In this document: positions 2,346-50,739 of the stretch, piece by piece | Layout: each line of letters starts with the position of its first letter | Position numbering within the stretch: position 1 is the stretch's first letter | From: Pohlia nutans | Lineage: Eukaryota; Streptophyta; Bryopsida; Bryales; Mniaceae | Direction of reading: 5' to 3' | DNA length: 64,000 bases | Assembly (NCBI GenBank): GCA_022496805.1 | Contig: CM040092.1 | Coordinates: 13,162,113 to 13,226,112, forward strand | The notes under the pieces: generated by a model | What the model was told of the DNA's origin: nothing | The model's database searches: none | Seen by the model: only the letters and a program-made list of their open reading frames with translations | Position numbers and translations under genes: made by a program

Positions 2346-2379
2346 ATAAGAGTTCATATAGCCAAAGCTGAGGACTTAA

Positions 2380-3143
2380 CCCTAAAAGTTCAAGGGGCAT
2401 TGGATAAAACATAGATGTGTTATAAAATGTGCCTTCCATATGTTTGATGAAATTTGGTTTAGTAGACGAAATGAAGGGCATCATCTCTACAAGTTATTTG
2501 TACGGTCAAACTTCCAAAAATAACTTTAGATATTTTCTTAATGAATTTAAAAGCATTAACCTTTGAAAATTTTGTATAAATTATAATTTTAACTTTTAGA
2601 GTTTAAAATTTTGCATGATTGGTTTAAGTTGGTTTATCTATTGTAAACTTGAAAAAAGAAAAAGAAATGATGGATGGAACATCGATACTTTCTCCAAATA
2701 GCAAATTTTATAACACTAAGACAATGTTGAGGTGATCCACTTTGAAAAATTATTTTGGGTCGAGTTTAACTCAGATTGACATAATTCAAATTGTGTTGGA
2801 AAGTACATTATATAATAGAGCAATGCAATGGAGACCTCTTTTGAAAATTGGATCGAAAGAGAATCTTCAATTAGATCCACTTTTCTAAGTAATGAGGGAA
2901 TACCATTTGTATTCCATGAATTGTGGGACTACCGTGTCATTGCCACGTACTCACAGTTTCTGATTGTAACTAGGTTGTGGTCCCATTGCAAAAGGGGGAC
3001 GGCTCCCATTGCTCTATTATGCTATGTAGACTTGATGTAGTATTTTAGAATATTTTTTAGTTTTCAATAACTTATTTTTTTGTTCCGGATAACCTGTTAG
3101 ATTTGGACAGCAACCAGAAAATGGTTGTTTGAGCGTTTAGAGG
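2380..3143 (+). mobile_element. TTAA-7 element, long variant
   Basis: It is flanked by TTAA (2,376-2,379 and 3,144-3,147). It begins CCCTAAAAG and ends CGTTTAGAGG. The TTATAAAATG box lies 40 bp in (2,420-2,429). The one-sided hairpin CAACCA-gaaaa-TGGTTG (3,111-3,127) starts 16 bp from the right end. The first 380 bp match the next element (3,411-3,952) with much divergence. The central-right part differs and is about 220 bp longer. Confidence 0.7.
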
Positions 3144-3410
3144 TTAATGGGCATCCAACTTGTGGAAGAAATTGCGGGTAGGGGCAGGGCGGAGGGCTTG
3201 AAAAGCCCAACAGATAGGGGCACAGATGGTGGCATAGGTCATAGGGGAGACATGCCAGGGCCATGGCTATGCGGGCAGGGCCCATGTAAGTTTAGCCCTG
3301 GCCAGCCATATGATGGTAAGAGCAATTATCTGTTGGGGGAGTGTTTGCAAACAGAGGCGCGATTGTGGCCTGTTTTAGGGGCCTCCTGAGTTCATTTTAT
3401 TAACTCTTAG

Positions 3411-3952
3411 CCCCTAAATGACAAAGGTGGTAAGGTCAAAACCTAGATGTGTTATAAAATGTTACTTCTGCAACTTCGATGAAGTTTGGTCCAAAAGAGA
3501 AAATGAGAAGCATGATGTTTAGTAATTATCTGTACAGTCAAAGTTTCAAAAATAGTTTTAGATACTCATTTAATGAATTTAAGAGCATTTACCATTTTAA
3601 ATTCACCAAAATTACAAGTTTTATTTTTAGAATTTGAAATTTGATATGATTGGTTAAAACTAAACATCCTATTCTAAAATTTTAAAAGGAAATTTTTTCA
3701 AATGAGTGAACATCATTAGTTTTCCGAAATAGTAAGTTTTATAACACTAGGACAATATTGAGGTCTTTCTCTTTGAAAAATTCCTCAGTGAACCTCACTA
3801 TTGCAAATGAAATGTATCAAAAAGCACTAGAACATGATCTGGACCCCCAATTCAAACAAAAAATGAAAACGTGAAAAATGTCATTTGCTGCCCATGGGCA
3901 ATCACTGCTGTTTAGGTTGCGACCAGAAAATGGTTGATCGATCATTTAGGGG
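3411..3952 (+). mobile_element. TTAA-7 element
   Basis: Termini are CCCCTAAATGA and TCATTTAGGGG, an 11-bp perfect inverted repeat. The left flank is TTAG (a decayed TTAA) and the right flank is TTAA at 3,953-3,956. The TTATAAAATG box is at 3,452-3,461. The hairpin ACCA-gaaaa-TGGT (3,922-3,934) ends 18 bp before the right terminus. It abuts the next TTAA element with a single shared TTAA. Confidence 0.8.
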
Positions 3953-3956
3953 TTAA

Positions 3957-4527
3957 CCCCTAATTGCCTACAGCCCTCTCCATATTCGGCAGTTTTGCAA
4001 AGATGCATTATAAAATGCAATTAAGAGGGATATTTTGAACTTGATGTATGATTAAAAGATGTACATTATGAATTTTAGATTCTCTCCATACGGTAAAATC
4101 TTTAATTGCAATCACCAATAATTTTGTATAAAATTTGATACATAAAATTTAAAATTCTTTTGTAATTCGATTACGAATATGATATTGATAACCTATGGAT
4201 GAATTTTTTTGTGATGGATCAAAATGTAACATTCTAAGTGTAGTGATTTTTGGAGATTTTTTGGTTGCTTAATTTTATGAATTGACATTTTCAAGAGCAC
4301 TTTTGAACTATTTTGAACTAAGATCTTAGAAATTTTTGGTGAATCACTTGCAATATGAAATGAGGCATAAAAAGTTCACAAATCATCTCCTTTCTAATCG
4401 GTCCTCACATGCATGAAGCTATCTTTCCACGAAATCTACGGCAAAAAATTCACACTGCAAAAGTGCATGACGGATGAGAATACTTGGGTGTCATCATCCA
4501 AAAAGTGGACGCTTAGATAGTTAAGGG
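3957..4527 (+). mobile_element. TTAA-1 element, copy 1
   Basis: This is a copy of the commonest family in the window (about 570 bp, seven near full-length copies). It starts CCCCTAATTGCC after a TTAA shared with the preceding element and ends AAGGG before TTAC (decayed). The interior carries the family box ATTATAAAATGCAA and, near the right end, the slightly decayed hairpin ATCCA-aaaag-TGGAC. It has no coding capacity. Confidence 0.85.
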
Positions 4528-4879
4528 TTACACATCATTGTAGCACAATGATTTGTTTTTGGCATTTAAATGCCAGAAAGCACCAAAAGTAATTGGTGTG
4601 CACCAAGCGTTAAGGAAAAATTGAAGACAAAAATGGATGAAAACGCTAGATTGTTTCAATTTTTGAAAATAAACTCGATTAAAAATCGCCAATTTTTAAT
4701 GAAAGTCATCCAAATATGTGGATGATAAGATAGTTCTATCCAAAATATAGATGAATATGAAAATATTTGGCTACCTTGTTTTATTTTATGTCGCCACTTT
4801 AGCACTTCTCCAAAAACAAAACAAAAATCCATGTTGCAGCTATATCCTGGTAGATGGATGTAACTTATCTAAAGTGAAC

Positions 4880-5700
4880 TGAAGTATCACAAAGTAGATG
4901 AAGGATTTTTCATCCAATTCCTTTCTTGAAGGCTCTTCGTTGGTCATGCCATCTCTTCAAGTTAAATTCAAATCATTCAAGCTATTTTTCATTGACAAGA
5001 TTCCATCGTCATAGGCCCAATGTTTAGAGGTTAATCCTAAATGCCTGGGCCTATGACCATGGAATCAAATTTTACCTGTCACACTCAATTCTGCCACTAT
5101 AAATAAGATTAGAACTTAATTCTATATTTTAAGTAGATGAAGCCATGTCTCTAGTATAAATCATGAATTTTTCAAAAATTTGGTAAAAATTTGAAATTAC
5201 TATGATTTTTGGAAGTGATTGTAAAAAAAATTCATATCAATTACAAAATGATTGTACTCCAAATTTCCAATTCTTTTTACCAAAGGTGTAAATTACAATG
5301 AAGAAAATTATAGGAAATGATAATCATCCATGTATCTAAATTTAGAATAATTTCATACACCATGGTTATACCCACTAAACTTGTAACTCCAATAAAACAC
5401 TCAATTTGCAAAGTTTTTCAAAAATTCAAAGTGGAGTAGAAATTAGACTTGGTAAGCTTAATTTTGTTAGTTAAGCTCAAATGCAATAGAACTCATTTTC
5501 ATGGCCTAAATTTAGTTTAAGTAGAAAATAGAGAAAATCCCAAAATACACTACACGGTGAACTATATTTACTACTCTTTTTGTAGTTAGGACCCCATATA
5601 AAATTCAAAAATAGCTTGAATGATTCGGATTTAACTTGAGAAGGTGGCATGACCAACAAAAATCCTTCCCAAAAAAAATTGGATGAAAATCGTCCATGTA
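4880..5700. repeat. inverted repeat around a central TTAA
   Basis: At 5,031-5,034 a TTAA sits between two mirror-image element ends: GGCCCAATGTTTAGAGG on the left and TCCTAAATGCCTGGGCC on the right. Sequence at about 4,890-5,005 recurs inverted at about 5,590-5,690 (GCATGACCAAC, TTGGATGAAAA). One arm therefore carries roughly 530 bp of extra DNA. It reads as two copies of one TTAA family head to head, or one large palindromic element with an insertion. Confidence 0.5.
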
Positions 5701-6330
5701 GCTGTTGGAATTAAATAGTGAGTTACATTCATAAGCCAAATTTTGGTATGGGCGGCATTTGGGGATTAATCTTGTTATCTTGTAATCTCGGTAACGTGTG
5801 TAGGTGCACAACAAATTTTGGTCGATGGAAATAGTTGGTAATCCCTTTTGAATTGGTGTATTGATTGTAAAATTCAAAATTGCGGACAATAGTTACACAC
5901 CTTATGCAAAAATCTAATTTTCATTTAGACACTTATAGCTCACTCATTTCATGAATATACACAATAAATTCTATATAATACATAAATATACTTTGAAGAT
6001 TACAAAGTTGCATTTTGAGAACATGAGAACATCAAATACTATTTTTAATAAAAAAATCAACCTCTACCACTCTATCAATCTATGACTTCATTTTCACCTT
6101 TATAATGGTTGAGTGCGTGTAGTTATTGGTTACTTTGATGAATTTCATGTGCAATATTATGGACTTCACCGTACTCAAACCCCTTGGTCTGGGAAGGAAG
6201 CTCTAGATTTATCTCTCTCCTTTCCATCCTTCTTCTTTCTGCTTTTCCCATCCCGCCCTCATCCTTTGTTCATTCTTTTTTTTCTCAATCCTTTTTAATG
6301 ATTAAATAATATATAGGATGTTTTCATAGT
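5700..6330. other. AT-rich intergenic, nothing recognised
   Basis: No conserved protein, RNA gene or terminal inverted repeat was seen. Short open frames are scattered and unsupported. Confidence 0.6.
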
Positions 6331-8772: not shown

Positions 8773-8776
8773 TTAA

Positions 8777-10715
8777 CCCCTAAAGGTTTTCACCTGTTTT
8801 GTGAAAGTCAAGCCCTACAATTTATAAATATCACATTGTATACTTGCATACTTGAAATATCACATTGTATGATTTATATATTTTCATAGACAGTCATCAA
8901 TATTATGGAGGTATGACAAAGAGTTTATAATGATTGGAAGATACTTGAAATATTTACATATCTTGTCATGTAAATAAGATAAAAATTGAAAAAAAAATAT
9001 ATTTTTGACAAATCAAATATCAAAAATTATATTCAAGGTAGATAAAAGTTATGTTTACAAGTACACTAAATGGCGTATTTAGTGTCCTTGGACACTATTT
9101 CTAAACCCGGACACTATTTAATTTTTGGGAGATACAGTGTCCTTGTAAGAAAAAAAATGAATAAAGTGTTCATATATCATATGGCAACTAATAAATATGG
9201 CATGCCACCGCATGTCACTCTCATAGCTTGGAAAGAACATGGCACTCTCAATGAAAGTGGAAATGACAAGTGGCTAACTCCTATGTAGTGTCAAGGGACA
9301 CTATTTCTCTTCACCTTTGAACAAATTGTGATAAAAGACATCAATTCACCTCGGATGCTAAATATGCCATTCAATGTAGTTAAAAAATGAAAGTGAAAAA
9401 ATTAAAAGAGATGCATGATTGGAGCATTTTTAGAGGGTGTTTTCACACTACGGGTGTTTGAGTCATGAACCATTTTTTTTTCTAATAGTATAAAGCGGTT
9501 GATTTAAAGATGTAATATAATAAATAAGGAAAATACTAAAAAATATTTTAAAATAGTAAATATAATCTTTTGCAATCTTTTAGCATATTTTATATCATTT
9601 TGGAATATTTTGGGATATTTTTGGAATTTTTGGAATATTCATGCTAATGTCTTTTTATCCACTTGCAAACCACGTTGAAATTATATTTCACCCACACCAC
9701 ACGCTCCGTTTTTATTAGCCAACCAAGCTTGCAAGAATTTTTTTGGGAACTCGCCATTATTAAGGCCATTATTGTAAAAGAACAAGAATCGCTGCTATAA
9801 ACCTCTAATATCCACCTTAGTCATTGAATTTTTTTGGAATATTTTTGGAATACGATACTTTTATGTAATAATAAATTAAAGACAAATACTGCCAATACTA
9901 TATCTTCAATGAAACATATCAATTAAAGCGCTAACGTACTTATTGTCCAGCGTCATAGGACGCAATGTATTACAGTTTGGTCCAAATACTATTTTATATT
10001 GGTCACTGAAAATTTTAATATATATACAATCCTAGAATACCTTTTCACTGTTGTTAACATTTTTACCAAAAAACCAATTTCAATGACCAATAAAATGTTT
10101 AAGGGCGAAATTTTGTTTGTTATGTGATGTCACACTACTCATTATGGATGCTCTACCGTGGAAACCCCAGGGAGTGCACTCTTCAAGTATTGTAAATATA
10201 CACGTACGTGCACAACAAGGGTATTATTTAGAACAAATATGTACAAAATGTATGTATAGGAGACATATTGCAATCAAGCGGAAAGTAGATATATATGGGG
10301 CCTAGAGTTAAATGCCTCATTTTTAGCCCCTGTGTACATATGGAAATGTATTTTGAGGCTATGAGATTTGTACATATATTGTTTGATTTCAGCCCAAAAA
10401 AATGTATACATGGGTGTTTTAATAAGGGGGATGCATGCACATGATTCCTAGCTGTATTGAATAGTGCATTCCTGAGGTGGAAACACCCTAGAAAGTCGGC
10501 TTTTGTATTTTCAACACTCAAATTCAAATTTCTTGATGGTGTAAAATCTTCAAATGAAATCTATTCTCCAATCCGAACGGTCAAAAGATGTACCATAACT
10601 CAACTTAAACATCTAACTCAATGAAAACACCAATTCCAAGAAAGCTAAAACATCTGATTTTTTTAAACCTTTGACCAAAAACCATCCAAACAATGGATGG
10701 TTGGTCCTTTAGGAG
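8777..10715 (+). mobile_element. TTAA-10 element (candidate, 1.9 kb)
   Basis: The left end is TTAA + CCCCTAAAGG (TTAA at 8,773-8,776). The right end is CCTTTAGGAG + TTAC (10,716-10,719). A strong one-sided hairpin ACCATCCA-aacaa-TGGATGGT (10,681-10,701) lies 14 bp from the right end. The interior is non-coding and includes a possible Tourist-like fragment (about 9,940-10,160). Pairing of these two distant ends is inferred from their terminal similarity, so the boundaries are less certain than for the short families. Confidence 0.5.
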
Positions 10716-10802
10716 TTACACAATACTTGAATTTCCACAAATCCACCAGGGGACTACACTGTACTTGACTTTTGACAAACCCACAAAGGAGCTAAACTGT
10801 AC

Positions 10803-11340: not shown

Positions 11341-11374
11341 GTACCTGACTTTGCAGAAATCCACATTGTCTTAA

Positions 11375-11909
11375 CTTCTAAATGACCATGGGTTTCTCTT
11401 GTTTTTGAGCATCATTTTCTCCTCTTTCTATTCATTTTCTTGTGAATTTTTTTCGCTCTTGATAGCCACTACCAATTTGAACATTTCAAAAAAATTAAAG
11501 AATTTTTGACCAATTTAACAAAATTTCCCATGTCTCCAAAGACGGTCAAAAAAGGTTCGAAAAGATTGTCATTTCATCTTTTCACTTCAATTGCTATAAA
11601 CTTGCAATTTGAACTGTCAAATTCTATGAAAATTTTACCATTCATTCTCTAGATAGTCTAAAGCAAGATCCTATGGTTAGAGATGCAAAAAAACCATTTC
11701 TAAGGTTTATTTGAAGCCCTGCCCAAATTGCCCATTCTCTCTGTAACCTCCACTTACAAACTCGGAATCAAGAAAAATGTGAATCCCCATTTTTGCATCA
11801 ACATACCAAATTCACATAATGATTCAAAAAAAATTAGGATAAAAATTGACACCATGGGAACCTACCCAAACATTGAAATGTCCTAGTTAGGAAACTTGGC
11901 GTTTAGGGG
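11375..11909 (+). mobile_element. TTAA-9 element
   Basis: It is flanked by TTAA (11,371-11,374 and 11,910-11,913). Ends are CTTCTAAATGACC and GGCGTTTAGGGG. The hairpin TCCTA-gt-TAGGA (11,881-11,892) lies 17 bp from the right end. It is immediately followed by a TTAA-1 copy that shares the TTAA. Confidence 0.65.
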
Positions 11910-11913
11910 TTAA

Positions 11914-12472
11914 CTACCTAGACGTTCATTTTTTGGCGATGTACAAATTTCATCTATGTTTTCTCATCCGTCATACAATTTTTGCAGTGTGGAATTTTTA
12001 CTATAGATTTTATGGGAAGATAGCTTCATGCATCAATGCATGAGTGAACCCATTAGAAAGGGGATGATTTGTGAAATTTTTATGCCTCATTTCATCGTAG
12101 TGATTCACCAAAATTTTCTAAGATCTTAGTTCAAAAGTGCTCTTGAAAAAGTCAACTCATAAAATTAAGCAACCAAAAAATCTCTAAAAATCACTACACT
12201 TAGAGTATTACATTTCAACCCATCACAACAAATTTCATTTAAAGAAACCCTAATCTGTAATCAAAGTACAAAAGAATTTTGAATTTTGAGTTTAAATTTT
12301 GTACAAAATATTGGTGATAGCAATCATAGATTTAACCATATGGATGGAATCTGAAATTTATAATGTACAACTTTTATTTATACATCAAGTTCAACATATC
12401 CCTCTTAGTTGCACTTTATAATGCATCTTTGCAATTCTCCAAATGTGAAGAAGGGTGTAGGCATTTAGGGGG
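11914..12472 (-). mobile_element. TTAA-1 element, copy 2
   Basis: It lies in the opposite orientation to copy 1. It starts with a shortened terminus (CTACCTAGACG, CCCC lost) and ends GCATTTAGGGGG before TTAA (12,473-12,476). The subterminal palindrome is partly decayed (GTTCATTTTTTGGCG). The body matches the other copies throughout. Confidence 0.85.
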
Positions 12473-12476
12473 TTAA

Positions 12477-14086: not shown

Positions 14087-14243
14087 AACAGACAGCATTT
14101 CTGGAAGAAGAAGGATGCCGATTTGAGACCCTGTCATACAATTTTTTCGTGATATAGTTACAAAACACCCAATTTACACTACCAGCTCAAAACTGCAAAG
14201 CAGACATGACAGAAAAGGCAGCACGGCAGCTCTGAGGACATGG

Positions 14244-14495
14244 TCAAATTTCACGACACACTGCGAGAGCAGGATTCTCGCCTGGTAGCTCAGCTAGAAC
14301 GTCGTGAACCTCAGATTTGGACGCGACTCCTTGATCTTTGTCCATGGCATAACATATGTACACGGTGTCTACGATGTTGCTCAACACCGGAACAAACAGA
14401 ACCAGGACTAGGAACACAATGACCCAACTTAGAACCCAAGTGATCCGCCTCTGGTCCCTCACCTGCCATGTTGACGGAGACAATACTCCATATTC
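14244..14495 (-). pseudogene. duplicated last exon of the CTL gene, frame intact
   Basis: This 252-bp segment equals in length the last exon of the choline-transporter-like gene (32,885-33,136). It encodes the same C-terminus: WVLSWVIVFLVLVLF membrane segment, VLSNIVDTVYICYAMDKDQG and the EVHDVLAELPGE tail. There is no frameshift or internal stop, and the upstream AG acceptor is kept (TTTTTTAGCAG before the exon). Differences include GVLSPSTWQVRDQRRITW against AVLSLSTGLARDQRLITS. The exons encoding the rest of the transporter are absent here, so on its own it is a fragment. It lies downstream of the full gene on the same strand, so use as a distal alternative last exon is possible but not shown. 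Confidence 0.85.
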
Positions 14496-14550
14496 CTGCT
14501 AAAAAACATAGAAAAAATGTTAAACTCCACAACTTGAATGCAAACTAACT

Positions 14551-15178: not shown

Positions 15179-15401
15179 CACAAAACATCAAGAAACCGTC
15201 ACATGTGATCATAAGAGAATGGAGTGTATGTGATGGCAGCTCCAATAGTCTGCTGGAACCTACGAAGTGGATTTTTTAATTTTTTTTTCAATTAATAAAT
15301 AATTGTATAATATGGAAATTTGATGAAGAAAAAAGATGCATAGAAGTATGTAAAATAGTACCTGGTGGCGGTAAGGTTTCCTCACAAGCTTAACCCTTTA
15401 A

Positions 15402-15969
15402 CCCCTAACTGCCTAGCGTCCATTTTTTGGACGATGTACAGATTTCATCCGTAGATTCTCATCCGTCATGCATTTTTTGCAGTGTGGGATTTTTACTGTA
15501 GATTCTATGGGAAGTTAGCTTCATGCATATGTGATCCGATTAGAAAGGAGATGATTTGTGAAATTTTTATGCCTCATTTCATGTTGTAGTGATTCACCCA
15601 AAATTTTGAAGATTTAAGTGTTAAAGTGCTCTAAAAAAAGTCAACTCATAAAATTAAGCAACCAAAAAATCTCCAAAAATCACTACACTTAGAGTATTAC
15701 ATTTCAACCAATCACAAAGAATTTCATCTGTAGATTGTCAATATCTTATTCGTAATTGAATTACAAAATAATTTTGAATTTCACGTTTCAAATTTTATAC
15801 AAAATTATTGGTAATAGCAATCATAGATCTAACCGTATGGATAGAATCTAAAATTCATAACGTACAACTTTTATTCATATATCAATTTCAAAATATCCCT
15901 CTAGGTTGCATTTTATAATCCATCTTTGCAAAACTGCTCAATTTGAAGAGGGCTTTAGGCATTTAGGGG
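15402..15969 (-). mobile_element. TTAA-1 element, copy 3
   Basis: A full-length copy with TTAA on both sides (15,398-15,401 and 15,970-15,973). It starts CCCCTAACTGCC and ends GGCATTTAGGGG. The perfect palindrome GTCCATTTTTTGGAC (15,418-15,432) starts 16 bp inside the left end. The inverted TTATAAAATG box is at 15,909-15,918. Removing it with one TTAA restores the TTAA-3 left terminus. Confidence 0.92.
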
Positions 15970-16345
15970 TTAATGTCCTGATTCAACACTGTTTTCAAAG
16001 ATTCGTTATAAAATGTTTGATGAAAAACAAAAATGAAGTTGATGTACAAAGCAAAGTTGTAAATGTCAATGTGAAGATCACATCTGTACGGTTGGATTCA
16101 TCATATTTTTTTATTAATATTTTTTAATGAATTTTGCAAGGTTTTCTCTTGAATTCAATTAAAAATCCAAATTTACACAAAAAAATTAAAAAAAAACATT
16201 GTAATGAAATTGGAATAACATGCACTACGAGATGGTATGGTTTCCATTATTTGATTCTACTTATTTTGAAAAATCATGTTAAGGTCTCACTTTTTGAACT
16301 TAGAATGAAGCTCGACATAAACCAATTATGTTGTTTTTCAAAAAA

Positions 16346-16678
16346 CTCGGGGGGTGTAGTGATATGTTGGAGTAGCAATATACGTGCGAACAAATGATAG
16401 GGTATTTTAACAACATGGGAACAAAAAATTATAAATGGACTTAGAGGTAATATAGGGTATCAAAAATGGCACTGGACATCTTTAAGTACTATAGGGTATG
16501 GAATAATAGGTAATTTGGAATTATAAGTAATGCAAGCCCTTTTTCTATGAACCCAAAGTAGAAAATTACATAATGATAGCATGTGAAAAAAAAACCAAAA
16601 AAACAAGTAATACCCCCCTATAAAATAGTTGTTGTTTGCACCTATATCTTTAACTTTTTAACACACTGACCCCCCGAG
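16346..16678. mobile_element. 333-bp MITE with 8-bp TSD (hAT-like)
   Basis: Inverted termini CTCGGGGGGT and ACCCCCCGAG are flanked by the 8-bp direct repeat TCAAAAAA (16,338-16,345 and 16,679-16,686). The uninterrupted relative at about 40,400 has a single TTTTCCAAAAACCACAAT, which confirms an insertion. An 8-bp TSD is characteristic of the hAT superfamily; the terminal sequence itself is not a familiar one. The interior is non-coding. Confidence 0.85.
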
Positions 16679-16853
16679 TCAAAAAATCACAATATTGTAT
16701 TTTGAAGATCCATATAGCGTACAAATGATAGTCAACTAGCACAAGAACCAAGACTCCAAGGGAAATTTGGATGGATGAAAAACTGTACATGATGTAGTGT
16801 TGAGAAAGGTTGCAATATGTTCGTCGTTCATTATATAGACGTAGGAAAGTTAA

Positions 16854-17470: not shown

Positions 17471-17649
17471 TTAAAGGGTTAAGGTGACTGCCATTAATTG
17501 CTCCCCATATATAAGGTATTCCAAGCAATTCTTTGAAGCCCGCCATGATACACTGCAATGCAATTCTTGACCATGTGATCAGCTTTTGTGGGCAGATTCA
17601 GGGGTAGGGAATGCCAAAAGGACCATACTTTCTTGTAGCACATACCTCT

Positions 17650-25696: not shown

Positions 25697-25700
25697 TTAA

Positions 25701-28680: not shown

Positions 28681-28689
28681 TTAAAGCAA

Positions 28690-31831: not shown

Positions 31832-31835
31832 TTAA

Positions 31836-33612: not shown

Positions 33613-36435
33613 GGTCTACAACTTCCCACTTTGAATGATTGCATACGAAATCATTATAAATAGTGATAAAAGTTTGATCTCAAGAGAGTTTGGCTCTTGT
33701 AGCGTCTATCCAGTAAGCTTCTAAAGTGATCTCCCAATGAAAGCACACTCTGGTTAAGATGCTTAACCCCTAAAGGACCAAGAAGCCCAAATTGGGCCTC
33801 TGTTTTTTTTTTTTTTAGCAATTTTGAGTAGTTCCTGTGTGACTTCATTTTGTTCACATTTCTTTTTTTTTTACCAACTGATTCCAGTTATATAAAAATC
33901 TGGTCCTATCTGAATTATATTTTTCACGATACAATCGATTGAATTTGTCATTTCAAAACAATGAATACTTGGTCCTTTAAGGGTTAAAGTGACACAAATA
34001 GTAACCTTATCTCCAAACAGGAAAGGACGAGATGGTTTACCAGCAGGGCATAAGCAACAGAGAGGACGAATGTCACCATAGCCAGAAGTCGATCTGAAAT
34101 AACCTCCACCAGCACTGTGGACAGCAAGTTCCGCTTCAAGAGGTTGTATGTCATGACGGCAGATGCGTAGAAGCTCTCTCCAGTGATGGCTGCAAAGTTG
34201 GAAGTGAACCTCGTGAAGAACTCCACAGCTTCCAGAACCCACTGCAGACAAGCACGCACGAATATCGCCAGTGCGCCTTCTCGGCCTCGTTCGTTGTCTG
34301 CTTTGTTCAATGCTCCCCGAATCACTCGCACAATTGCAACCACCAGACCAGCAAAGCAGGCTGTTCCAAATGAGGGCCCAAACGCCACACTGCACCACAA
34401 CCAAAAGATGGTGAGGCCTAAAAATGACAAGAAATCTACTGACTTGTATGTGAATATTAAAACGCGCATCATAGACATGCTAATAATCGTACACTGCCAA
34501 TCACCGTGCACTTTAATGCAAATAAAATGATCAACAAGGTGCATAGTACTGTGCCAAAGGTGCACGGTAATTGGCATGTGTCTACAATACCTGTAAATAG
34601 AGCAATTGCAATCATTAAAAATCAACAGCTGCTAATCAACACTAAAAATAACCCCAACAGAGAATACTTGTCACATCAGATATCTCATTCAGACTACAGA
34701 GCTTTCACAAACTGGTCAGAATCTCTAAAACCTCATTCTAGCTTGTGGCCTCACTCCCCAGCCCAATAACACTCTGTTTTCATAGACAACATCATATAGA
34801 GAATGTTCTCTATATGATGACACTGATCATACAGAGGCCTCCTTATATATCATGAGGAAGCCTCCCTAGGATCAGTGTGGCCATGGAGAAATTCTCTTTC
34901 CGATGTTCTTGCAACAGTCTAATGAAATATATTTCACTTTGTTTCTCATGCAGCTTTCAAAGTTGAATGAACTGACAATCAACTTCGAACCTTCGTATCT
35001 TTTATTCTATACATCCTGTGTTCCAATTGATTAAAAAATGAATCCGTAGGGGTTTAATTAGTCTAGGTTGATGCAATGTACTCCACTGATGATTAAATAC
35101 ACAAGTCAAAGGAAAAATACAACATGAAACCTAGAGTTCAGAGTCACAGGATATCACTAATGTTATAGCGACTCAATCATGTCGACAACATCAATTTTGG
35201 AATCCGGACTGTAACATCAATTTTGAAAGCCTAAATGTAGCATCAATCATGTCGACAACAAGCTCTCTCTCTCTCTTGTATTGATTGATCAAAGGTACCA
35301 GAATCAAATTGAAGTAGGAAAAGGTTACAGACCTCAAGGAGCGTCTCGTGGCATTCACAGAGGAAGAACCAGCTTGAGCAAAGTACCACTGCGCAATGGC
35401 GCCACTGATGGTGAAGACCTGAATTTGGGCCATGATCATGGCAGACCACAGGACAGCAAATCCTGACAAGTACTCATAATATTGCACCCAAGCAGCAGGC
35501 TCCCAAACACAACACGGTGTATCAGTGCCGCGCGCACACTGTCTGGTAGGATGATCCACCAACTCCGGGTTCACCACCAGCTCCCCATTCGTATAAGCAT
35601 ATCCCATGAAAGCCACAAACGGCACACAGAACAGAACGAGCCCTAGTGACAAACTCGGCAGCGCAACCAGAAGCACCAAATTGTGGTGCAAAGCCTCAGA
35701 AGATGTCTTCACCACGCGAATCGTAAGCTCAATACGATCCCAGTTGGAGTAAATCACATACACCATGAGTCCACACGTGAGCAAGATGATCCCAAACAAA
35801 GCATACTGCCCTGTGGAATCAAATTCAGTTCGGCACTCGATGTTGCGTTGACAGAGAATGAACCAAGTCAGATTCAAAGCTATGGGGAGCAACACTATGA
35901 ACGGCAACGTGGCATATACGAGCTCCTTTGTGTACACTCGAAGCAGGTACAACACTCCTATAGCCAATGGACCACTCAAAGCTAGAGTTAACCCCAGTGT
36001 GACCCATATAGGTGTAGCAGAAGGTGCTGTGCTTTGTATATTTTTTACCAATATACGAGGCAGAAGGATGTGCATAGCTGACATAGCTGACAAAGGCTTG
36101 TTTTCTGGAATGGAGCAACCGCGAGTAGGATCATAATGTGCAGACTCAATGTATTGGTAGTCAGGGTTGGATTTAACCACTCCATAGATGCCAAAGGATG
36201 CTGATATGAGGATGAGGAGAAGAAAGATAATGGTGAAAATAAGGTCCTGGTAAGGCCTGATGCCCACATTGTAGCCAAATACTGTGGATCCATCTTGAGA
36301 GGAAGGCAGAGAAACCACTGTGTCTGGTTGGATTTGGTAACCCCTTCCTACAAGCTCATCTTTATCTAGTAATGGTTCTTCTATTTTCTCACTTTCGATG
36401 TCGTCGTACCTGGATGTCCCTCCTTCAAGTCCCAT
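32885..36435 (-). CDS. choline-transporter-like (CTL/PNS1) membrane protein, 3 exons
   Basis: Exons read from high to low: 36,435-35,333, 34,389-34,041 and 33,136-32,885. All introns are GT-AG (donors GTCTGT and GTAAAC; acceptors GTGCAG and TTGGCAG). The phases fit exactly and give 567 codons. I start at MGLEGG; an earlier in-frame Met adds 16 residues and looks less likely. The N-terminus is cytosolic with an acidic dileucine (EEPLL), a known type of endomembrane sorting signal. Then follow about ten hydrophobic segments, a luminal loop with several Cys, and the family's WSAMIMAQIQVFTISGAIAQ-WYFA block. VAFGPSFGTACFAG and the C-terminal YICYAMDKDQG also fit PF04515. The family moves choline or related solutes, and plant members act at the plasma membrane or trans-Golgi; the substrate here is inferred. 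Intron 2 carries two MITEs. Confidence 0.9.
33193..33427. mobile_element. Stowaway MITE in CTL intron 2
   Basis: Canonical ends CTCCCTCTGTCCGGAAATAA and TTATTTCCGGATAGAGGGAG with TA on both sides (33,191-33,192 and 33,428-33,429), 235 bp. Stowaway elements are Tc1/mariner-type MITEs. Confidence 0.93.
33767..33983 (-). mobile_element. TTAA-6 element in CTL intron 2
   Basis: 217 bp with TTAA on both sides (33,763-33,766 and 33,984-33,987). Inverted ends are CCCCTAAAGGACCAAG and CTTGGTCCTTTAAGGG. The hairpin GCCCAA-a-TTGGGC (33,785-33,797) starts 18 bp inside the left end. Confidence 0.9.
34791..34818. repeat. 28-nt palindrome in CTL intron 1
   Basis: ATCATATAGAGAA, a two-base loop, then its exact inverse. 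It can form a cruciform or RNA hairpin. No larger element around it was recognised. Confidence 0.9.
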
Positions 36436-37408
36436 TCTAGCTCCTTTTCCAATCAGTCTGGAAAGAATAATACACAAAGTCAATCAACAAGCATGTGTCT
36501 CCACACCCCATTAGAAATGTAGAACTCTCATCCATATACAATTTTTTAGTATACTGATTCAAACATTCAATGCCCCTACACTCAATCCTCTCTAATGGCA
36601 TTACCTCAGGAGATTCTATTAGCTCTCTCATACATGTTCACAACTGATTTGGGGAATGGGGATATACAGAGAATGTGGCATTACAGAGTATGTTATTAGA
36701 GAGGATTGAGTGTACCTTTATAACCACATGTTAAAACTCTACTGAACATAAGAAATTCATTCTTTGGAATGATGGACACATGTGGACACCATTCATTGCT
36801 TAATCTCTGAGACAATAAATATGTCAAGGCAAGCTACAAAACGGAAATCTGTGCCCTAAAAGTCCATGTATGAGCACCTGTCACTCAAAAACAAACCCAC
36901 TACAATTCAGATGTCACCAACATCTTGCGACAGTGAAAAGAAAAGCCCTCAAACAGATCCTCTGAAAAAACGGAAGAAATACTAGTGTGGCTCAGCCCTA
37001 AAATTTTCAATTCTCTAGTCCATATAGTGCAATCAATGAAACCAGAATGTCTACGGAACAAATAACCTAAATGCTTATGGCACCACAAAACCCCAAGACA
37101 GTTTGCTGTTCCACATATATCCCAACAACCAAACACAACGTTCACTTTAAAGGAGAGAAAAGGGAGCCATTTCACATTAAACCGAAAAGAGAAACCCAGT
37201 TGTTTCAGAAGCGCACCACGAACCCTAAACTGAAACAGAACCGTCAATGCAATGCAGTGAATCAAAATCAGGCCGAAAAAAGAAAAATCACTTCAAAGTG
37301 TAAAGTACAAACCAGAAAGAAGAGACGAACTGCAAAACTCAATGGAACGAAAGCACTTCGGATTGGTGTCTAATCAAACATTTGCTGAGCTCTTGCAAGC
37401 CTCTTGAG
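36436..37408 (-). other. upstream region of the CTL gene
   Basis: It should contain the 5' leader and promoter. No confident TATA box, start site or leader intron could be fixed by eye, and no other gene is visible on either strand. Confidence 0.4.
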
Positions 37409-38229: not shown

Positions 38230-38233
38230 TTAA

Positions 38234-39042
38234 CCCCTAAAGGTCCCTAGCTTTTTTGGGCTTAAAATCATCATCGCTTTTTATGTGTTATAGGTCTAAA
38301 TGTAAGTGAGGTATAGAAATCTCAACCGTACAATCTTGTAACATACATGTTGTAGATCATGTGGATCAATTTTGGGGTCATTTGGCCATATAGATTGCAA
38401 GATCATAGTGTTTTAGTGCTAAAAAAGGATGCTGAAATTTTCCAAGCAACACAGTTAGAGGTGAAATTCGTTTTCAAAATTACTCAAATGAAAAAACGTT
38501 GAACTAAAAAGTTGTTCAAAATCATCATATAAACACATTAGTACCAAAAAAGCCTCATGAAAAAAATTTAATGTGCCCTAAAATGGCCTTGCAATGTCAA
38601 AAAGTAGCCCGAAAAGTGACCCATTTGAACCAAAAAGCAAAAAGTGTCCAAACTAGACCTGTGCACTAAAATGACTCCCAAACATTCATAACAACATGGA
38701 TTGACCTGAAAATTTTACCATGATAACTAGACTTCAAGGGGAATTCAACCCAACAAGTTTTATTGAAAACGGACTTGGGATGAAAGAGATACAAGCCCCC
38801 GAAGTTACTGCCATCAAAATTCACAGAACTGTCCAAAAACAAGATACCTACTTTCAAATGATCACCAAAAATTCAATTCATCTCTGATTGATCTCAAATT
38901 TTTACCACACATTCCATACATCATGCGGGGAGTTTTTTCAAAATTTCAGCAAAATCGGACACGTTTTGCAAAAGTTACAGCTCTTCGAAGGTGACTGTAC
39001 CCCCAAAAACGTCCATAATATGGACGCCGGGACGCTTAGGGG
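38234..39042 (+). mobile_element. TTAA-2 element, 809 bp
   Basis: TTAA on both sides (38,230-38,233 and 39,043-39,046). Ends are CCCCTAAAGGTCC and GGGACGCTTAGGGG. The palindrome GTCCATA-a-TATGGAC (39,011-39,025) ends 17 bp before the right terminus. The interior is AT-rich and has no homologue elsewhere in the window. Confidence 0.85.
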
Positions 39043-39046
39043 TTAA

Positions 39047-40008: not shown

Positions 40009-41048
40009 CCCTTAAACGCCTGATTAACCCTTTAACGTTCCAGTTCATCACTGTTTTCAAAGATTCGTTATAAAATGTTTGATGAAAACCAAAAATGGAG
40101 TTGATGTACAAAACAAAGTTGTAAATGTCAATGTGAAGATCACATCTATACAGTTGAATTTATCATATATTTTTTAAATATTTTTTAATTAATTTTGCAA
40201 GGTTTTCTCTTGAAATTCGATTAAAAATCATGAATTAACGATTTTTTTAAAAAAAAATTGTAATGAAATTGGAAGAACATGCACTACGAGATGGTATGGT
40301 ATCCATTATTTGATTCTACTTATTTTGGAAAATCATCTTCAAGGTCTCACTTTTTGAACTAAGAATGAAACTTGACATAAACCACTTCTGTTGTTTTTCC
40401 AAAAACCACAATAACCTATTTTGAAGATCCAAACTGTACAAAGGATAATCAACTTGCACAAGAACCATGAGAACTTTTGGTGGATGAAAACTGTTCAATT
40501 CGAATGGAATTCGAACAGATTGAATACACTATGTTCGTCATCCACTATGTGGACGCAGGCGCCTCAAAGGGTTAAACGTCAAAGTAAGCCCCATGGGCTT
40601 AGTTATGAAAGAATAATGGGGAAAAAAGAAAAAATTCTCAATCAAAATTGAAATGGATTGGTGCTTTGGAGAACTGCTGAAGAAGCGAGGTTAGATTCTG
40701 AAGTTGCGCCAGATTTGGAATATTGTGGAAGAAATGCCAATCATGTGACTGAATTGGGGGGACGGGAGGAGGTTTGGACAGTTCGGGCGTAGGAGAAAGA
40801 GCTTGGGATCTGCATACAATACTTGGCAGTTGGTTGCTTTTCGAATTCAGAGTTTGAGAAGAGTTGATTTCTCCAATAAATTTGTCCACTCTAAAGGTCT
40901 GACTCAAGTGTTTGGTCCAATGGGGGGCTTGCAAGGCTGGTTATTGGCAAAGTTTTTAAATTTGTTGGCCTCCTGGCCTCAGTAAATAGTGCCCGAGATT
41001 TTTTATTTTCCCAAGTTGCTTCAAATGGAGCCTCTTGACGTTTAAGGG
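40009..41048 (-). mobile_element. TTAA-5 element interrupted by TTAA-3
   Basis: Outer ends are TTAA + CCCTTAAACG (TTAA 40,005-40,008) and TTGACGTTTAAGGG + TTAA (41,049-41,052). Near its left end it is split by the TTAA-3 copy at 40,028-40,571. Beyond that it resumes ACGTCAAAGTAAGCCCCATG, matching the copy at 22,180, with the GCCCCATGGGC hairpin. Confidence 0.75.
40028..40571 (+). mobile_element. TTAA-3 element, uninterrupted copy
   Basis: 544 bp, TTAA on both sides (40,024-40,027 and 40,572-40,575). Ends are CCCTTTAACGTTCC and GGCGCCTCAAAGGG. The TTATAAAATG box lies 40 bp in (40,068-40,077). The hairpin TCCAC-tat-GTGGA (40,541-40,553) is 18 bp from the right end. This copy shows the unbroken form of the nest at 15,394-17,478. 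Confidence 0.88.
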
Positions 41049-41180
41049 TTAAGAGAGTTTGAAAAAGTCTATATAATAATTAAAACTCAAAATAAAACTT
41101 GTCAATTGTCAATATTTATGATCCATTGTTTCTCCCATTCAAATATTTAAATTAGACAACCTTGTGATTTGTGCATTTAA

Positions 41181-41695
41181 CCCTTAACTGCCAAAGCGTT
41201 CATTTTTTGAACGATGTACAGATTTCATCCATGTTTTCTCATTTGTCATGAACTTTTTGTAGTGTGGATTTTTCACTATAGATTTTATGGGAAGTTAGTT
41301 TCATGCATGTGTAAACTGATTAGAAAGGGGAATGATTTGTGAATTTTTTAGGTCTCATTTCATGTTGCAGTGATTCACCAAAAATTTCTAAGATTTAAGT
41401 TCAAAAGTGTTCAAAAGTGCTCTTAAAAAAGTCAACTCATAAAATTAAGCAACCAAAAAACCTCCAAAATATCTTATTCATAATTGAATTACAAAAGAAT
41501 TTTAAATTTTGAGTTTCAAATTTTATACAAAAATATTGGTGATTGCAATCATAGATTTGACCGTATGGATAGAATATAAAATTCATAATGTACAACTTTT
41601 TTTCATACATTAAGTTCAAAATATCCCTCTTAATTGCATTTTATAATGCATCTTTGCAAAACTGCCGAATTTAGAGAGTTGTAGGCATTTAGGGG
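41181..41695 (-). mobile_element. TTAA-1 element, copy 7 (internal deletion)
   Basis: TTAA on both sides (41,177-41,180 and 41,696-41,699). It starts CCCTTAACTGCC and ends GGCATTTAGGGG. About 55 bp are missing from the middle. The palindrome is GTTCATTTTTTGAAC: both arms differ from the usual GTCCA/TGGAC in a compensating way. Confidence 0.9.
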
Positions 41696-41924
41696 TTAAG
41701 TGCCCAAAGTAAAAAAATTGAACAAATAGAAACGACCATTGAGACAAATTGGTATGAACCCTCACCAAAATGGTCACTTTGGTCCCTTTGAGACACACAT
41801 ATCAAGAAAATCATTGCAACAAGTTCTTCATGACACATCCTTTATCACATCATGATTCACCCAAAAACAAATGAATATGCCATTTGAATAGCATCATCCT
41901 ACAAAACACACAGTAATGCATTGA

Positions 41925-43311: not shown

Positions 43312-43764
43312 CTAGGGAGCTAGGGCGGGAGCTAGCGAGGGAGCTAGGGAGCTCGGGAGCTTGGAGCCTCCAAGCCATGGATGATAGAGAGTGGGAGCTT
43401 TCCCATTTTCGGCGAGATAAAAGCCTTGGCGGCCGACGCGCCACACGCAATGCACGCACGGCCGAAAGGGCACGGGAGTGACGGTATCGTCGTCCACCCA
43501 CACCACAAACAGCTGCACTTTGCGTCCCCACTGGAAGCCGCAGGTGTAGCGGGTGGTACCCCAGATGCTGGGCATGAATCCCCACCCAAAGTGCTCGCCA
43601 TAATTGAGCTCCTTCTCGGGGAACTTGCCGCAGTCCACTTCAAGGATCTCCCCTTTGTCTATGAAGTTGTAGATGTTCACGCTCGCTGGGCTGCTGCTCA
43701 TGCATGACAACTCCATAGCCAGCATCCACACTGCAACGACAATAATCGCGTACCACCTTGCCAT
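43312..43764 (-). CDS. S-protein homolog (self-incompatibility S1/SPH family), secreted
   Basis: A single-exon frame of 150 codons. Residues 1-28 form a signal peptide (hydrophobic YAIIVVAVWMLAMEL). The mature part fits the plant self-incompatibility S1 family (PF05938): VNIYNFIDKGEILEVDC, then HFGWGF, TTRYTCGFQWG, FVVWVDD and a closing PCVHCVWRVGRQGFYLAENG. The conserved cysteines of this small beta-sandwich fold are present. Poppy S1 acts as a female self-incompatibility determinant; most SPH proteins have no known role. The C-terminus ends in an unusual LAPSLAPALAP repeat encoded by a GAGCTAGGGA-type tandem run (about 43,312-43,350), so the original stop may have been lost. The start at 43,764 is the one that gives the signal peptide. 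Confidence 0.85.
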   Translation of the reverse strand: MARWYAIIVVAVWMLAMELSCMSSSPASVNIYNFIDKGEILEVDCGKFPEKELNYGEHFGWGFMPSIWGTTRYTCGFQWGRKVQLFVVWVDDDTVTPVPFRPCVHCVWRVGRQGFYLAENGKAPTLYHPWLGGSKLPSSLAPSLAPALAP

Positions 43765-43983: not shown

Positions 43984-44376
43984 CTAAAGGACGAAAGATT
44001 CATGGTTTTAACCCCTAAGCTCCCAAGAGACCGTTTTTTGGTCGCTACATGTTTTTAACGGGCTGCCCAAAATCAAAAAATAAAATAAATTTTAAAATAC
44101 TACATCACGTCTACTTTTCAACGCAACTTGGAAGGCAGATCTATGTTTTGTTCAATACCCCTCGAGCTTTCAGGGGTTAAAATGACAAATGCTAAATATA
44201 TTATATTATTGGAAATATATTTATGGTGATATATTATTTAGATGGGACCATATTTTATATCACCGGAATCAGTGAAGAACATCGCATGTATTTGTCAAAA
44301 AACAAAAGGAAGTCTACGCATGACTTACTTAAAATTGCTAAAAAAAATGTGAGGCCTATTTTGGGCTTCTTTGTCC
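43984..44376 (+). mobile_element. decayed TTAA-6 element split by TTAA-4
   Basis: CTAAAGGACGAAAGATTCATGG, AATGACAAATGCTAAAT, GGACCATATTTTATATCACC-GGAATCAGT and GGGCTTCTTTGTCC follow the 33,767 element in inverse order. The TTAA-4 element sits at a TTAA after CATGGTT. The outer termini are no longer intact. Confidence 0.65.
44012..44176 (-). mobile_element. TTAA-4 element, 165 bp
   Basis: TTAA on both sides (44,008-44,011 and 44,177-44,180). Ends are CCCCTAAGCTCCC and GAGCTTTCAGGGG. The hairpin GACC-gtttttt-GGTC (44,029-44,043) starts 17 bp inside the left end. It is the shortest family member in the window. Confidence 0.85.
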
Positions 44377-47533: not shown

Positions 47534-47582
47534 AGCAAAGCCAGAACAAACTGACCAACCTAAGTAAACCTACATGACTTAA

Positions 47583-48151
47583 CCCCTAACTGCCTGAGCG
47601 TCCATTTTTTGGACGATGTACAAATTTCATCCATGTTTTCTCATCCGTCGTGCAATTTTTGCAGTGTGGATTTTTTACTCTAGATTCTATGGGAAGTTAG
47701 CTTCATGAATGTGTGATCCAATTAGAAAGGGGATGATTTGTGAAATTTTTATGCCTCATTTCATTTTGTAGTGATTCACCCAAAATTTCAAAGATTTTAG
47801 TATAAAAGTGCTTTTGAAAAAGTCAACTCATAAAATTAAGCAACCAAAAAATCTCCAAAAATCACTACATTTAGAGTATTACATTTCAACCAATCACAAC
47901 AAATTTCATCTACAAATTGTCAATATCCTATTCGAAATCGAATTACAAAAGAATTTTGAATTTTGAGTTTCAAATTTTATACAAAAATATTGGTGATAGA
48001 AATCATAAATCTAATTGTATGGATAGAATCAAAAATTCATAATGTACAACTTTTATTCATACACTAAGTTCAAAATATCCCTCTTAGTTGCATTTTATAA
48101 TGCATCTTTGCAAAACTACCGAATTTGGAGAGGGCTTTAGGCATTTAGGGG
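47583..48151 (-). mobile_element. TTAA-1 element, copy 8
   Basis: A full-length 569-bp copy with TTAA on both sides (47,579-47,582 and 48,152-48,155). It starts CCCCTAACTGCC and ends GGCATTTAGGGG. The perfect palindrome GTCCATTTTTTGGAC is at 47,600-47,614. Confidence 0.93.
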
Positions 48152-48155
48152 TTAA

Positions 48156-48523: not shown

Positions 48524-48526
48524 TAA

Positions 48527-48759
48527 GAGCATTTGCACCCATGCCCTCCCAGAATCTGACACACTCAATAACTAGATGAAAAGTGCTAAGGGCCCTTCAA
48601 AAATGCCTCTTGACCCTCAATCCTAGCGTATCAAGAAATGGCCCTTCAAATTTAAGTTTAGGGGCGTTCAAGAGTGAAGGAGTGTAAGTTTAAGGGCTCT
48701 TCAAATGTAGATGAATAATTTTAGTGAGTCAACTTTAGCGTGCATGGGTGCGGATGCTA
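48527..48759. mobile_element. PIF/Harbinger (Tourist-like) MITE
   Basis: Ends GAGCATTTGCACCCATGC and GCATGGGTGCGGATGCTA with TSD TAA (48,524-48,526 and 48,760-48,762), 233 bp. Another Tourist-like end (AGAGCATCTTCACTTG) starts at 48,781 without a visible partner. Confidence 0.88.
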
Positions 48760-48762
48760 TAA

Positions 48763-49412
48763 GACTGATTTTTAATGTTAGAGCATCTTCACTTGTACAG
48801 GATAATTTTATCACATTAAAACTTCATCTCTAGTGGAGGGCACTTATTTAGAGAGTAGATCGCTTGATTCCTTCACCCATGCAACTCGCTATATTAACTT
48901 CAAACCAACCACTTGTCTTCTAATGTGCAAAAGTAAAAAGAATCTTCATCATATATTATCCAACCTACTCACTGTAAAAGTAAAAGTAAAATTTGTTGAG
49001 ATTGCACAACCACACCAAAAATTGGCACAGAGAATATTTCGGCTAGTTCAAGCATTAGTTGCTTGCTATTCATCCAAAATATGTCGTCCTCATCTATTGT
49101 TAAAGATGGGCGGCGTGCTCTTAGTTGTAACAATTCAACACTGCTGTAAGTTGAGAGCGAGGCCCGGGGCAGGGTCAACAAAAATTTATTTCTAAACAAA
49201 TGTCAAAAAATTTGGGAAATTGTTTTTTCAAAAATGGTTTTTTATGCTTGAAAAGAGAATCTTGAATAAAATTTGAGAATATCATATCTATCAAAACATT
49301 TATTTCAAAATAATTAAATATTCTGCACAGATTTGCTAATCCTACCCTCTAAAGAATGTTAGAATCTTTGAAACAAACTCAATACTAAGGTGGAGGCACC
49401 AAACAGTGTACT
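48763..49412. other. intergenic, unsupported open frames
   Basis: A 120-codon plus-strand frame (48,833-49,195) has no recognisable domain and follows a Tourist-like terminus. I treat it as non-coding. Confidence 0.4.
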
Positions 49413-49416
49413 TTAA

Positions 49417-50254
49417 CTCCTAAATGCCTACAGGTTTTGGGTAGTACCTAAATGTATTATAAAATGAGGTTTCTTTAACTTTTTTGAGCTTCAAATCTAA
49501 AAAGCATATATAAGACATCCTTATTCAGAGACATTTGTAGAGCTGAATTTGAAATCAAATGCGTGCTAGATATTTTTCAAATGAATTTACAAGAAAAAAC
49601 TATTAAAAATTTCTAAATTTATAAGTTTAATAATCTCATCTTGTGGTTCATTATAATTGGTTGAATCATTATGCATCAATAGTGGTGAAGTTGTTTACAT
49701 AAGTCTTATTACGTAAACAATCGATAGAGGTGTTTTGAGATTTCTTTGTAAGCAATCAAAAAATAATTTAATGGGTTGAAATATTGCACATTATGCAAAA
49801 GTTGATTCAATGTTGTACATTATGTACTTTTGGCCAATCATACCAAAATTCATAAGATAATGAGTATTTTGTATGTTTCTTATAATTAAAAAATAATTTC
49901 TTTTAAAATCAAATTTAAACATATTTTGACACTATTACTTAATTCAATCGTATGAATGTCATGGAAAAGTCATCTACACTTTCATTTGTATTATAGCCTC
50001 AAAGAACGGATTTAGTGCACATTGAACAACTCAAAACTTTGGAATTTTCTTTGTCAAAATTGAAGCTCATATAGAATTGAAGGATCTCATAAATTCAATA
50101 TTGATTTTTTTTTAATTTGAAAAAACTTATGTAAAGGTAACTACTTGAAAAATTCATGTAAAAGAAACCACACTGCAAGAACCCTTTCATTCGTGAGGAA
50201 AGTAGCGGCAATTCTATACATCATGCAAAATTTGCATGATTAGGCAATTAAGGG
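49417..50254 (+). mobile_element. TTAA-8 element, 838 bp
   Basis: TTAA on both sides (49,413-49,416 and 50,255-50,258). Ends are CTCCTAAATGCCTA and TAGGCAATTAAGGG. The TTATAAAATG box lies 40 bp in (49,457-49,466). The strongest hairpin of the set, ATCATGCAAA-a-TTTGCATGAT (50,220-50,240), is 14 bp from the right end. Confidence 0.88.
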
Positions 50255-50739
50255 TTAAGCAATTCTGTAAAGTTGAAGGTATTTTTTTGAAGTAGTATAT
50301 TATTTTAGTATTAGCAATCGAAAATTATTATTTCAAAATTAAAAAACTACAAATTAAAAACTAAATATAATATTTTTGGATTAGCCATGTAATTCTTATA
50401 ATGGAAGTTACCTAAGTTATTAAGATCATCCTATAGACGGGCCTATAGACTTGTCATGAACCAATACTTATCAAATTCAAATTATAATCAGTGATAGTAA
50501 AATATGAGGATGGTTTCAATGCACTTCATAAAGACACTTTGAAAGCAACTCTATAGATTAGACATGGATGCATGCATAGTTTCTGGTGATATCACCTTAG
50601 CTAGTGTGCACTTTGACAAATTAGTTGATGTTTTTCAAAACATCTAACAATACCAATCTTGTAGAATTAAAATTAATTCAATCAATACACGTAGAAGCCA
50701 AAAGAACAACTTTAGGAAGGCATTTTACACTATAAGAAA

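Follow-up and report, generated by a model that had tools for sequence, protein, structure and literature searches.

The window analysed here, a 64-kb stretch of the genome of the Antarctic moss Pohlia nutans taken as a whole, is crowded with short elements that are flanked by TTAA, have CCCCTAA-like ends and carry a small palindrome close to one of these ends. The elements are very probably miniature inverted-repeat transposable elements (MITEs) of the piggyBac superfamily, moved in trans by piggyBac transposases of the same genome, and the palindrome, initially annotated as a hairpin, would be the left-end duplex site bound by a dimer of the transposase's cysteine-rich domains (CRDs). Throughout, bp 1 of an element is the first base after TTAA, and 'left' denotes the palindrome end, for a reason given below.

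TTAA elements of the window

The initial annotation listed ten families of such elements, each with a hairpin 14-18 bp inside one end, and our end scan recovered all ten, with their CCCCTAA-like ends, where they had been placed. Their reported size range also holds, from TTAA-4 (173 bp including both TTAAs) to TTAA-10 (1947 bp). The scan added an eleventh family, X1, at 5031-5769. Together, the 22 listed elements and fragments occupy 13.3 kb, or 20.8% of the window, and TTAA-1 alone is present as nine copies or fragments. The elements, with their palindromes, are as follows (TIR, terminal inverted repeat):

2376-3147, minus: TTAA-7 copy b, 772 bp, TTAA on each side, left end at 3147
3111-3127, minus: TTAA-7b left-end palindrome CAACCATTTTCTGGTTG, bp 17-33
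3400-3956, minus: TTAA-7 copy a, 557 bp
3922-3934, minus: TTAA-7a left-end palindrome ACCATTTTCTGGT, bp 19-31
3953-4530, minus: TTAA-1 copy, left-end flank GTAA
5031-5769, minus: X1, the eleventh family, 739 bp, left end at 5769
5736-5746, minus: X1 left-end palindrome CCAAAATTTGG, centre bp 25
8773-10719, minus: TTAA-10, 1947 bp, TTAC on the palindrome side
10681-10701, minus: TTAA-10 left-end palindrome ACCATCCATTGTTTGGATGGT, bp 15-35
11371-11913, minus: TTAA-9, 543 bp
11881-11892, minus: TTAA-9 palindrome TCCTAACTAGGA, out of register with its centre at bp 23.5
11910-12476, plus: TTAA-1 copy, left end truncated
15390-17482, minus: TTAA-3 copy b, with two TTAA-1 copies nested inside
15398-15973, plus: TTAA-1 inserted within one TIR of TTAA-3b, with its left end at 15398
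15417-15433, plus: TTAA-1 left-end palindrome CGTCCATTTTTTGGACG, bp 16-32 (bp 17-33 in the copies at 28684 and 47579)
16850-17474, minus: second TTAA-1 insertion, within the opposite TIR of TTAA-3b
22176-22331, plus: TTAA-5, left-end part; far end not found at this site
22196-22212, plus: TTAA-5 left-end palindrome TAAGCCCCATGGGCTTA, bp 17-33
25697-25936, plus: TTAA-1, truncated copy
28110-28684, minus: TTAA-1 copy
31482-31835, plus: TTAA-1, truncated copy, right-end part
33763-33987, plus: TTAA-6, 225 bp
33785-33797, plus: TTAA-6 left-end palindrome GCCCAAATTGGGC, bp 19-31
38230-39046, minus: TTAA-2, 817 bp
39010-39026, minus: TTAA-2 left-end palindrome CGTCCATATTATGGACG, bp 17-33
40024-40575, minus: TTAA-3 copy a, 552 bp, adjoining or nested in TTAA-5b
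40541-40553, minus: TTAA-3 left-end palindrome TCCACATAGTGGA, bp 19-31
40572-41052, plus: TTAA-5 copy b, right end at 41052
41177-41699, plus: TTAA-1 copy
44008-44180, plus: TTAA-4, 173 bp
44029-44043, plus: TTAA-4 left-end palindrome GACCGTTTTTTGGTC, bp 18-32
47579-48155, plus: TTAA-1 reference copy, palindrome at 47599-47615, bp 17-33
49413-50258, minus: TTAA-8, 846 bp
50220-50240, minus: TTAA-8 left-end palindrome ATCATGCAAATTTTGCATGAT, bp 15-35

TTAA stands on both sides of 17 of the 19 tabulated elements, a count that is partly circular because the ends were located by a TTAA scan; on its palindrome side TTAA-10 is flanked by TTAC. The termini read CC[C/T], with exceptions in X1 (TTAATCC) and at some other ends (TTAACTC or TTAACTT). 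The elements are short, non-coding and multicopy, and have ends in common with autonomous elements, as expected of MITEs. No piggyBac domain was found in the 14 open reading frames (ORFs) of at least 140 aa in the window, and scanning the window against Rfam, with gathering scores as the cut-off, gave no match. The families had been described as having unrelated interiors, which is true of some and not of others: TTAA-4 and TTAA-7 have common pieces at both ends, and TTAA-1 and TTAA-8 have their left end in common.

That the flanking TTAAs are duplications, as had been proposed, holds for the nested copies, for which an empty site is available. TTAA-3b carries two TTAA-1 copies (TTAA-1c and TTAA-1d), one at an inner TTAA of each end; when both were excised in silico, leaving one TTAA each, TTAA-3b aligned with TTAA-3a, which has no such interruption. 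The agreement is close on the left and looser on the right, where TCAA stands in TTAA-3a.

A palindrome in a fixed register at one end

All eleven listed hairpins are present, at coordinates right to within 1 bp, and ten of them are centred no more than 1 bp from element bp 25. The centre falls exactly on bp 25 in TTAA-2 to TTAA-8 (including both copies of TTAA-7) and in TTAA-10, and in TTAA-1 it lies at bp 24 in the listed copy and at bp 25 in the copies at 28684, 41177 and 47579. We scored pairing over nine arm positions around a centre, bp 25 having first been noticed on these same ten ends. The palindrome ends of the ten families pair at 63 of 90 arm positions, against 22.8±4.2 in dinucleotide shuffles that keep the terminus (n=1000; maximum 42 at any common centre), so that palindromes are not equally frequent in shuffled controls. 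The opposite ends of the same families pair at 21/90.

The initial annotation also held that the letters of the palindromes differ while position and symmetry are kept, and the arms, with TTAA-9 as an outlier, bear this out. Matched with their own partners, the arms of the 11 families agree at 69 of 99 positions; when the right arms were re-dealt among the families, the mean was 47.0±4.5 and none of 20,000 permutations reached 69. The same permutation applied to the right ends gave 24/99 against 24.5. The window families are only partly independent, given the stretches common to TTAA-4 and TTAA-7 and to TTAA-1 and TTAA-8, and the half-site GTCCA recurs in TTAA-1, -2 and -3; the covariation test still holds, because common letters raise the permuted mean. 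These likenesses are what one would cite in favour of common descent, in which the palindrome would have been inherited with one ancestral end sequence and would have no selected function. We regard this as highly improbable: the arms co-vary across families, and autonomous lineages carry different half-sites at the same place.

The register is also apparent outside the window. Among 42 distinct TTAACC ends from 20 loci around transposases (near-copies were removed inside this sample and not against the window, and some of the ends belong to window families), 11 pair at six or more of nine positions at bp 25, whereas other integer centres average about 0.9 such ends. For a second sample we went down the list of matches from a genome pattern search and took 40 ends, all of which fall in the first 0.78 Mb of a single contig; of the leading 41 matches, one (C1:638498) was skipped because it lay within the previous 100-bp stretch. 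Here, 14 of the 40 reach six of nine at bp 25, with a mean of 0.70 per integer centre over bp 32-84 and a next highest centre of 6/40 (bp 82) before near-copies were removed; among the 27 distinct ends the count is nine, against 0.40 per other centre and a maximum of two. Since about half of such ends should be right ends, a palindrome in roughly one third of them is what one-sidedness predicts.

The claim that the hairpin occurs at one end only stands at bp 25 and is not absolute, as some other ends have palindromes out of register. The other ends of TTAA-10 (TTTCACC-TGTTTTG-TGAAA) and of TTAA-6 have weaker stem-loops of this kind, and one autonomous right end (L028) has a palindrome at bp 55.5. 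A scan of 19 right ends over bp 17-237, in which TTAA-4 and TTAA-6 were too short to be included, found no common palindrome centre (weak z of 2.7 at bp 56). Nor does an element's left-end palindrome recur in its own right end more than in permutations (242 against 243.6±4.5, 22 end pairs), and right ends with at least seven of nine pairs within bp 40-70 number 4 of 22, against 2.4 in shuffles. A palindrome shared by right ends in general is thus not apparent in this sample. With its site on the left, close to bp 25, and no counterpart shared by the right ends, this layout is like that of the bat element piggyBat, TTAA-1 being the exception. Separately, a motif seen by eye, TTATAAAATG, is common to the right ends of TTAA-1 (bp 51) and of TTAA-3, -7 and -8 (bp 40); perhaps a protein binds there, or the motif reflects shared ancestry.

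piggyBac transposases and the left-end site

TTAA with CCC ends had been read as a piggyBac signature, and a search of the genome for a transposase with the same ends had been suggested. The genome (697.8 Mb, 332 contigs) does encode such enzymes, within elements that bear these ends. At least 116 PF13843 matches were scored (E 1.6e-81 to 3.1e-74), a lower bound because there were 1305 first-look candidates; many lie in open frames of at least 500 residues and some contain stops. None of 14 control genomes gave a PF13843 match. The transposases of the partner elements have a DDE_Tnp_1_7 domain (PF13843) with the three catalytic aspartates, and a C-terminal cysteine-rich pattern is present in 17 of 20 proteins, a region in which six scanned proteins gave no Pfam domain above cut-off. 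Around 13 of 20 whole transposase loci we found a usable TTAA-CCC end pair, 4.7-6.8 kb apart (the other seven had none), and 33 of 60 upstream stretches gave a left end, the remaining 27 lacking a TTAACCY end; the left end was taken as the TTAACCY nearest the transposase, with the candidate ends of two loci (L019 and L028) picked by eye.

In these autonomous elements it is the end upstream of the transposase that has the palindrome; since the ends are the same, the palindrome end of the MITEs is the left end. The 17 distinct sequences among 46 autonomous left ends pair at 73 of 153 positions at bp 25, against 57.9±5.8 when permuted (146 of 20,000 permutations reach this value), and among 18 such ends scanned over bp 17-237, bp 25 has the highest paired fraction (0.46). 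Half-sites vary by lineage and include GAGGC, CCCAGCCC, GACCA, GGACA, CATGCA and others. When compared in register over bp 8-42, TTAA-1, -4, -5, -6, -7, -8 and X1 each match some autonomous left end at 23-27 of 35 positions, and TTAA-1 aligns with the left end of L017 at 79% over 109 bp (E 1.5e-18).

TTAA duplication alone does not tell Kolobok from piggyBac elements, and for four of the 11 window families none of the 46 left ends is a clear autonomous partner; both points could be taken to mean that the elements belong to another TTAA-duplicating superfamily such as Kolobok, or that more than one unrelated transposase moves them. Against this, PF13843 transposases are encoded by elements with the same ends and the same left-end palindrome, and we consider an origin of this kind so improbable as to be almost negligible, although no search aimed at a Kolobok transposase was made.

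The palindrome has close counterparts in animal piggyBac systems. In the Trichoplusia ni piggyBac, paired CRDs bind a palindrome at bp 17-33, centred on bp 25, of the left end only, and a 19-bp palindrome is repeated deeper in the right end (PMC7351741), 31 bp inside the 13-bp TIR (PMC12324416). The moss elements resemble it in their TTAA target, CCC ends, related transposase and left-end centre, and the exact T. ni span is found in TTAA-2, -5 and -7b and in the TTAA-1 copies at 28684, 41177 and 47579. Unlike in T. ni piggyBac, no palindrome common to their right ends was found, and their own left-end one recurs there no more than in permutations, though TTAA-1 has a palindrome at bp 51.5-55.5. 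The Myotis lucifugus piggyBat has a palindrome on its left end only (bp 19-30), and a repeated left-end motif (PMC11707139, PMC13405395). With piggyBat the moss elements share the left-end palindrome, and the C-terminus of the moss transposase aligns, weakly, with piggyBat rather than piggyBac. The repeated piggyBat motif also recalls one moss left end (L079, upstream of the transposase at C21:8043652), where a second, imperfect palindrome copy (15/21) lies about 50 bp further in; unlike in piggyBat, however, such an inner repeat is not general in the moss, and the letters of the palindromes are unrelated. Among human elements, MER75, MER85 and Looper have subterminal or inner inverted repeats at both ends, unlike the moss, whereas MER75B resembles it in having one at one end only (PMC12324416). 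Coral CMITEs are, like the moss elements, piggyBac-related MITEs with TTAA duplication, in an animal host instead; they have CC[C/T]T ends, and one family shares its TIRs with an autonomous element (PMC2872659). The words hairpin, palindrom and stem-loop are absent from the main text of that paper. Piggybac end types have been described by Bouallegue et al. (via PMC8086355).

Based on these comparisons, we can present a proposal for how the moss elements would move. The piggyBac transposases of P. nutans would act on the MITEs in trans, and their C-terminal CRDs would bind the left-end palindrome as a dimer on duplex DNA. With its centre at bp 25, the site would lie two to three turns of the helix in from the tip, so that the two CRDs of a transposase dimer may grip and bend one end as the pair of catalytic cores holds both tips. 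Because the right end has no site at that place, the synapse would be asymmetric. CRD specificity would vary with the transposase lineage, and the letters with it from family to family, and position and symmetry would be kept because the protein geometry is fixed. Both the binding by moss CRDs and the mobilisation are what we infer from sequence and from the animal systems.

The initial annotation had suggested that the enzyme reads the structure, or needs a different complex on each end. The second part accords with piggyBac and piggyBat, in which the end complexes differ, and the first does not fare as well. An extruded hairpin or cruciform, recognised by the transposase or by a host protein through structure only and not through sequence, would account for sequences that vary while symmetry stays, and a study of PGBD5 puts forward a role of this kind for inner inverted repeats (PMC12324416). 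However, the solved complexes of piggyBac (PMC7351741) and piggyBat (PMC11707139) show the palindrome as duplex DNA bent by a CRD dimer; a base-exact register would fit a duplex site better, as would a centre that is often non-complementary; and the imperfect arms of many autonomous left ends would fold poorly. We thus consider recognition of an extruded structure improbable, and less likely than a duplex site for a CRD dimer.

Several observations weigh against such a left-end CRD site or against the assignment of individual elements to it. TTAA-9 is off register, with only one of nine pairs at bp 25. The TTAA-1 right end has an inner palindrome of its own, GATGCATTATAAAATGCA, at bp 51.5-55.5 (6-7/9 pairs, in 8/8 copies); a right-end CRD site is possible in this lineage, since the right-end palindrome of T. 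ni piggyBac sits at about this place. Eight autonomous left ends taken alone pair at 36/72 against 29.5±4.8 (2231/20,000), which is not significant, and by permutation z (2.67) bp 25 ranks only fifth of 440 centres in the autonomous set, behind bp 68.5, 110, 175.5 and 75.5; once the window MITEs are added, it leads on both measures (0.54 and z 5.1, the next z being 3.04). Some autonomous palindromes are poor or shifted (L017 with 2/9, L035 at bp 24, L057 at bp 23 and the ACCAATTTTGGC group at about bp 24.5). TTAA-2, -3 and -9 match the 46 autonomous left ends at only 17-20/35 in register, without a close partner, and TTAA-10 reaches 24/35 but with a different half-site. Finally, a genome-wide search for empty sites with the joined flanks of TTAA-8, -2 and -6 gave no continuous match among the 46 listed, in a weak search that scored 40 of 2068 first-look candidates and whose list was taken up mostly by a single repeated flank. 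As to candidate inner palindromes of the autonomous left ends, those at bp 68.5 and 110 (z 3.35 and 3.24) are within reach of 440 tests and were set aside.

Neighbouring sequences and genome-wide scale

TTAA-6 lies at the 3' side, or in an intron, of a choline-transporter-like gene (33763-36483), parts of which are the minus-strand ORFs 33984-34625 and 35191-36483; its closest named protein is from Ceratodon purpureus (72%). A paralogous locus (C7:13471008-13471672, flanks 95-96%) has an insertion of different length at the TTAA-6 site, which suggests that the insertion may be older than the locus duplication or that a later change occurred. The window also contains an ORF of the self-incompatibility S1 type, here in a moss (43312-43764, minus strand; PF05938, E 5.7e-15), and a Ty3-type long terminal repeat (LTR) retrotransposon with a chromodomain at 52874-59137 (gag, reverse transcriptase, RNase H, integrase and a Tf2-1-like SH3). 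Since its 300-bp end stretches (52874-53173 and 58838-59137) are 100% alike, this insertion is probably young. Just outside one LTR lie 126-bp tandem repeats (five overlapping copies, 51629-52664), with related repeats beyond the other end (59229-59723). Further tandem arrays, with 21-bp and 38-bp units, are located at 17621-17827 and 61674-62015, and the repeat pair 14206-14505 and 32847-33146 is 93% alike.

A strict end pattern, TTAACCCYTWAMNGNC, has 47,378 + 47,733 matches in the genome, 95,111 in all, against 26 + 27 (53) for the reversed pattern. The pattern catches 14 of the 44 listed window ends, some of which are truncated, so the true number of ends is likely higher. DNA transposons have been reported to make up 23.68% of the P. 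nutans assembly, in a paper whose main text does not contain the word piggyBac (PMC9247546). As piggyBac is among the superfamilies present in all groups of another survey (PMC4438587), its occurrence in plants is not new as such.

An asymmetric palindrome is likewise a known part of animal piggyBac biology. The view that a hairpin at a fixed distance from one end had not been described must therefore be narrowed, given piggyBac, piggyBat and the human piggyBac-like elements; for plant MITEs we found no account of a one-sided palindrome in the open-access literature searched. The same literature yielded no report of a moss with piggyBac in such numbers, and such accounts may exist elsewhere. 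What is new here is the amplification in a land plant, the register common with the moth, and the eleventh family. Mean pairing is 6.3/9 in the 11 window MITE families and 4.3/9 in the 17 autonomous left ends, a comparison in which the MITEs had been noticed by their hairpins.

In summary, a pattern seen in plant MITEs from sequence can be tied to a structurally solved mechanism, with the putative CRD site in one register in the moss and the moth, and a land plant proves to be very densely invaded by piggyBac. We tentatively suggest, as a possibility that we would not yet favour, that piggyBac has flooded P. nutans to an extent for which we found no land-plant precedent, and that many transposase lineages are kept in its genome as a natural library, every lineage having a left-end CRD operator of its own at a near-invariant bp 25 shared with the moth. 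In this library, MITEs may have been selected for more symmetric, higher-affinity operators than those of their autonomous parents. The many natural pairs of transposase and operator, with differing half-sites at a fixed position, would make the CRD recognition code and one-sided binding testable, and may be a source of new transposition tools for plants.

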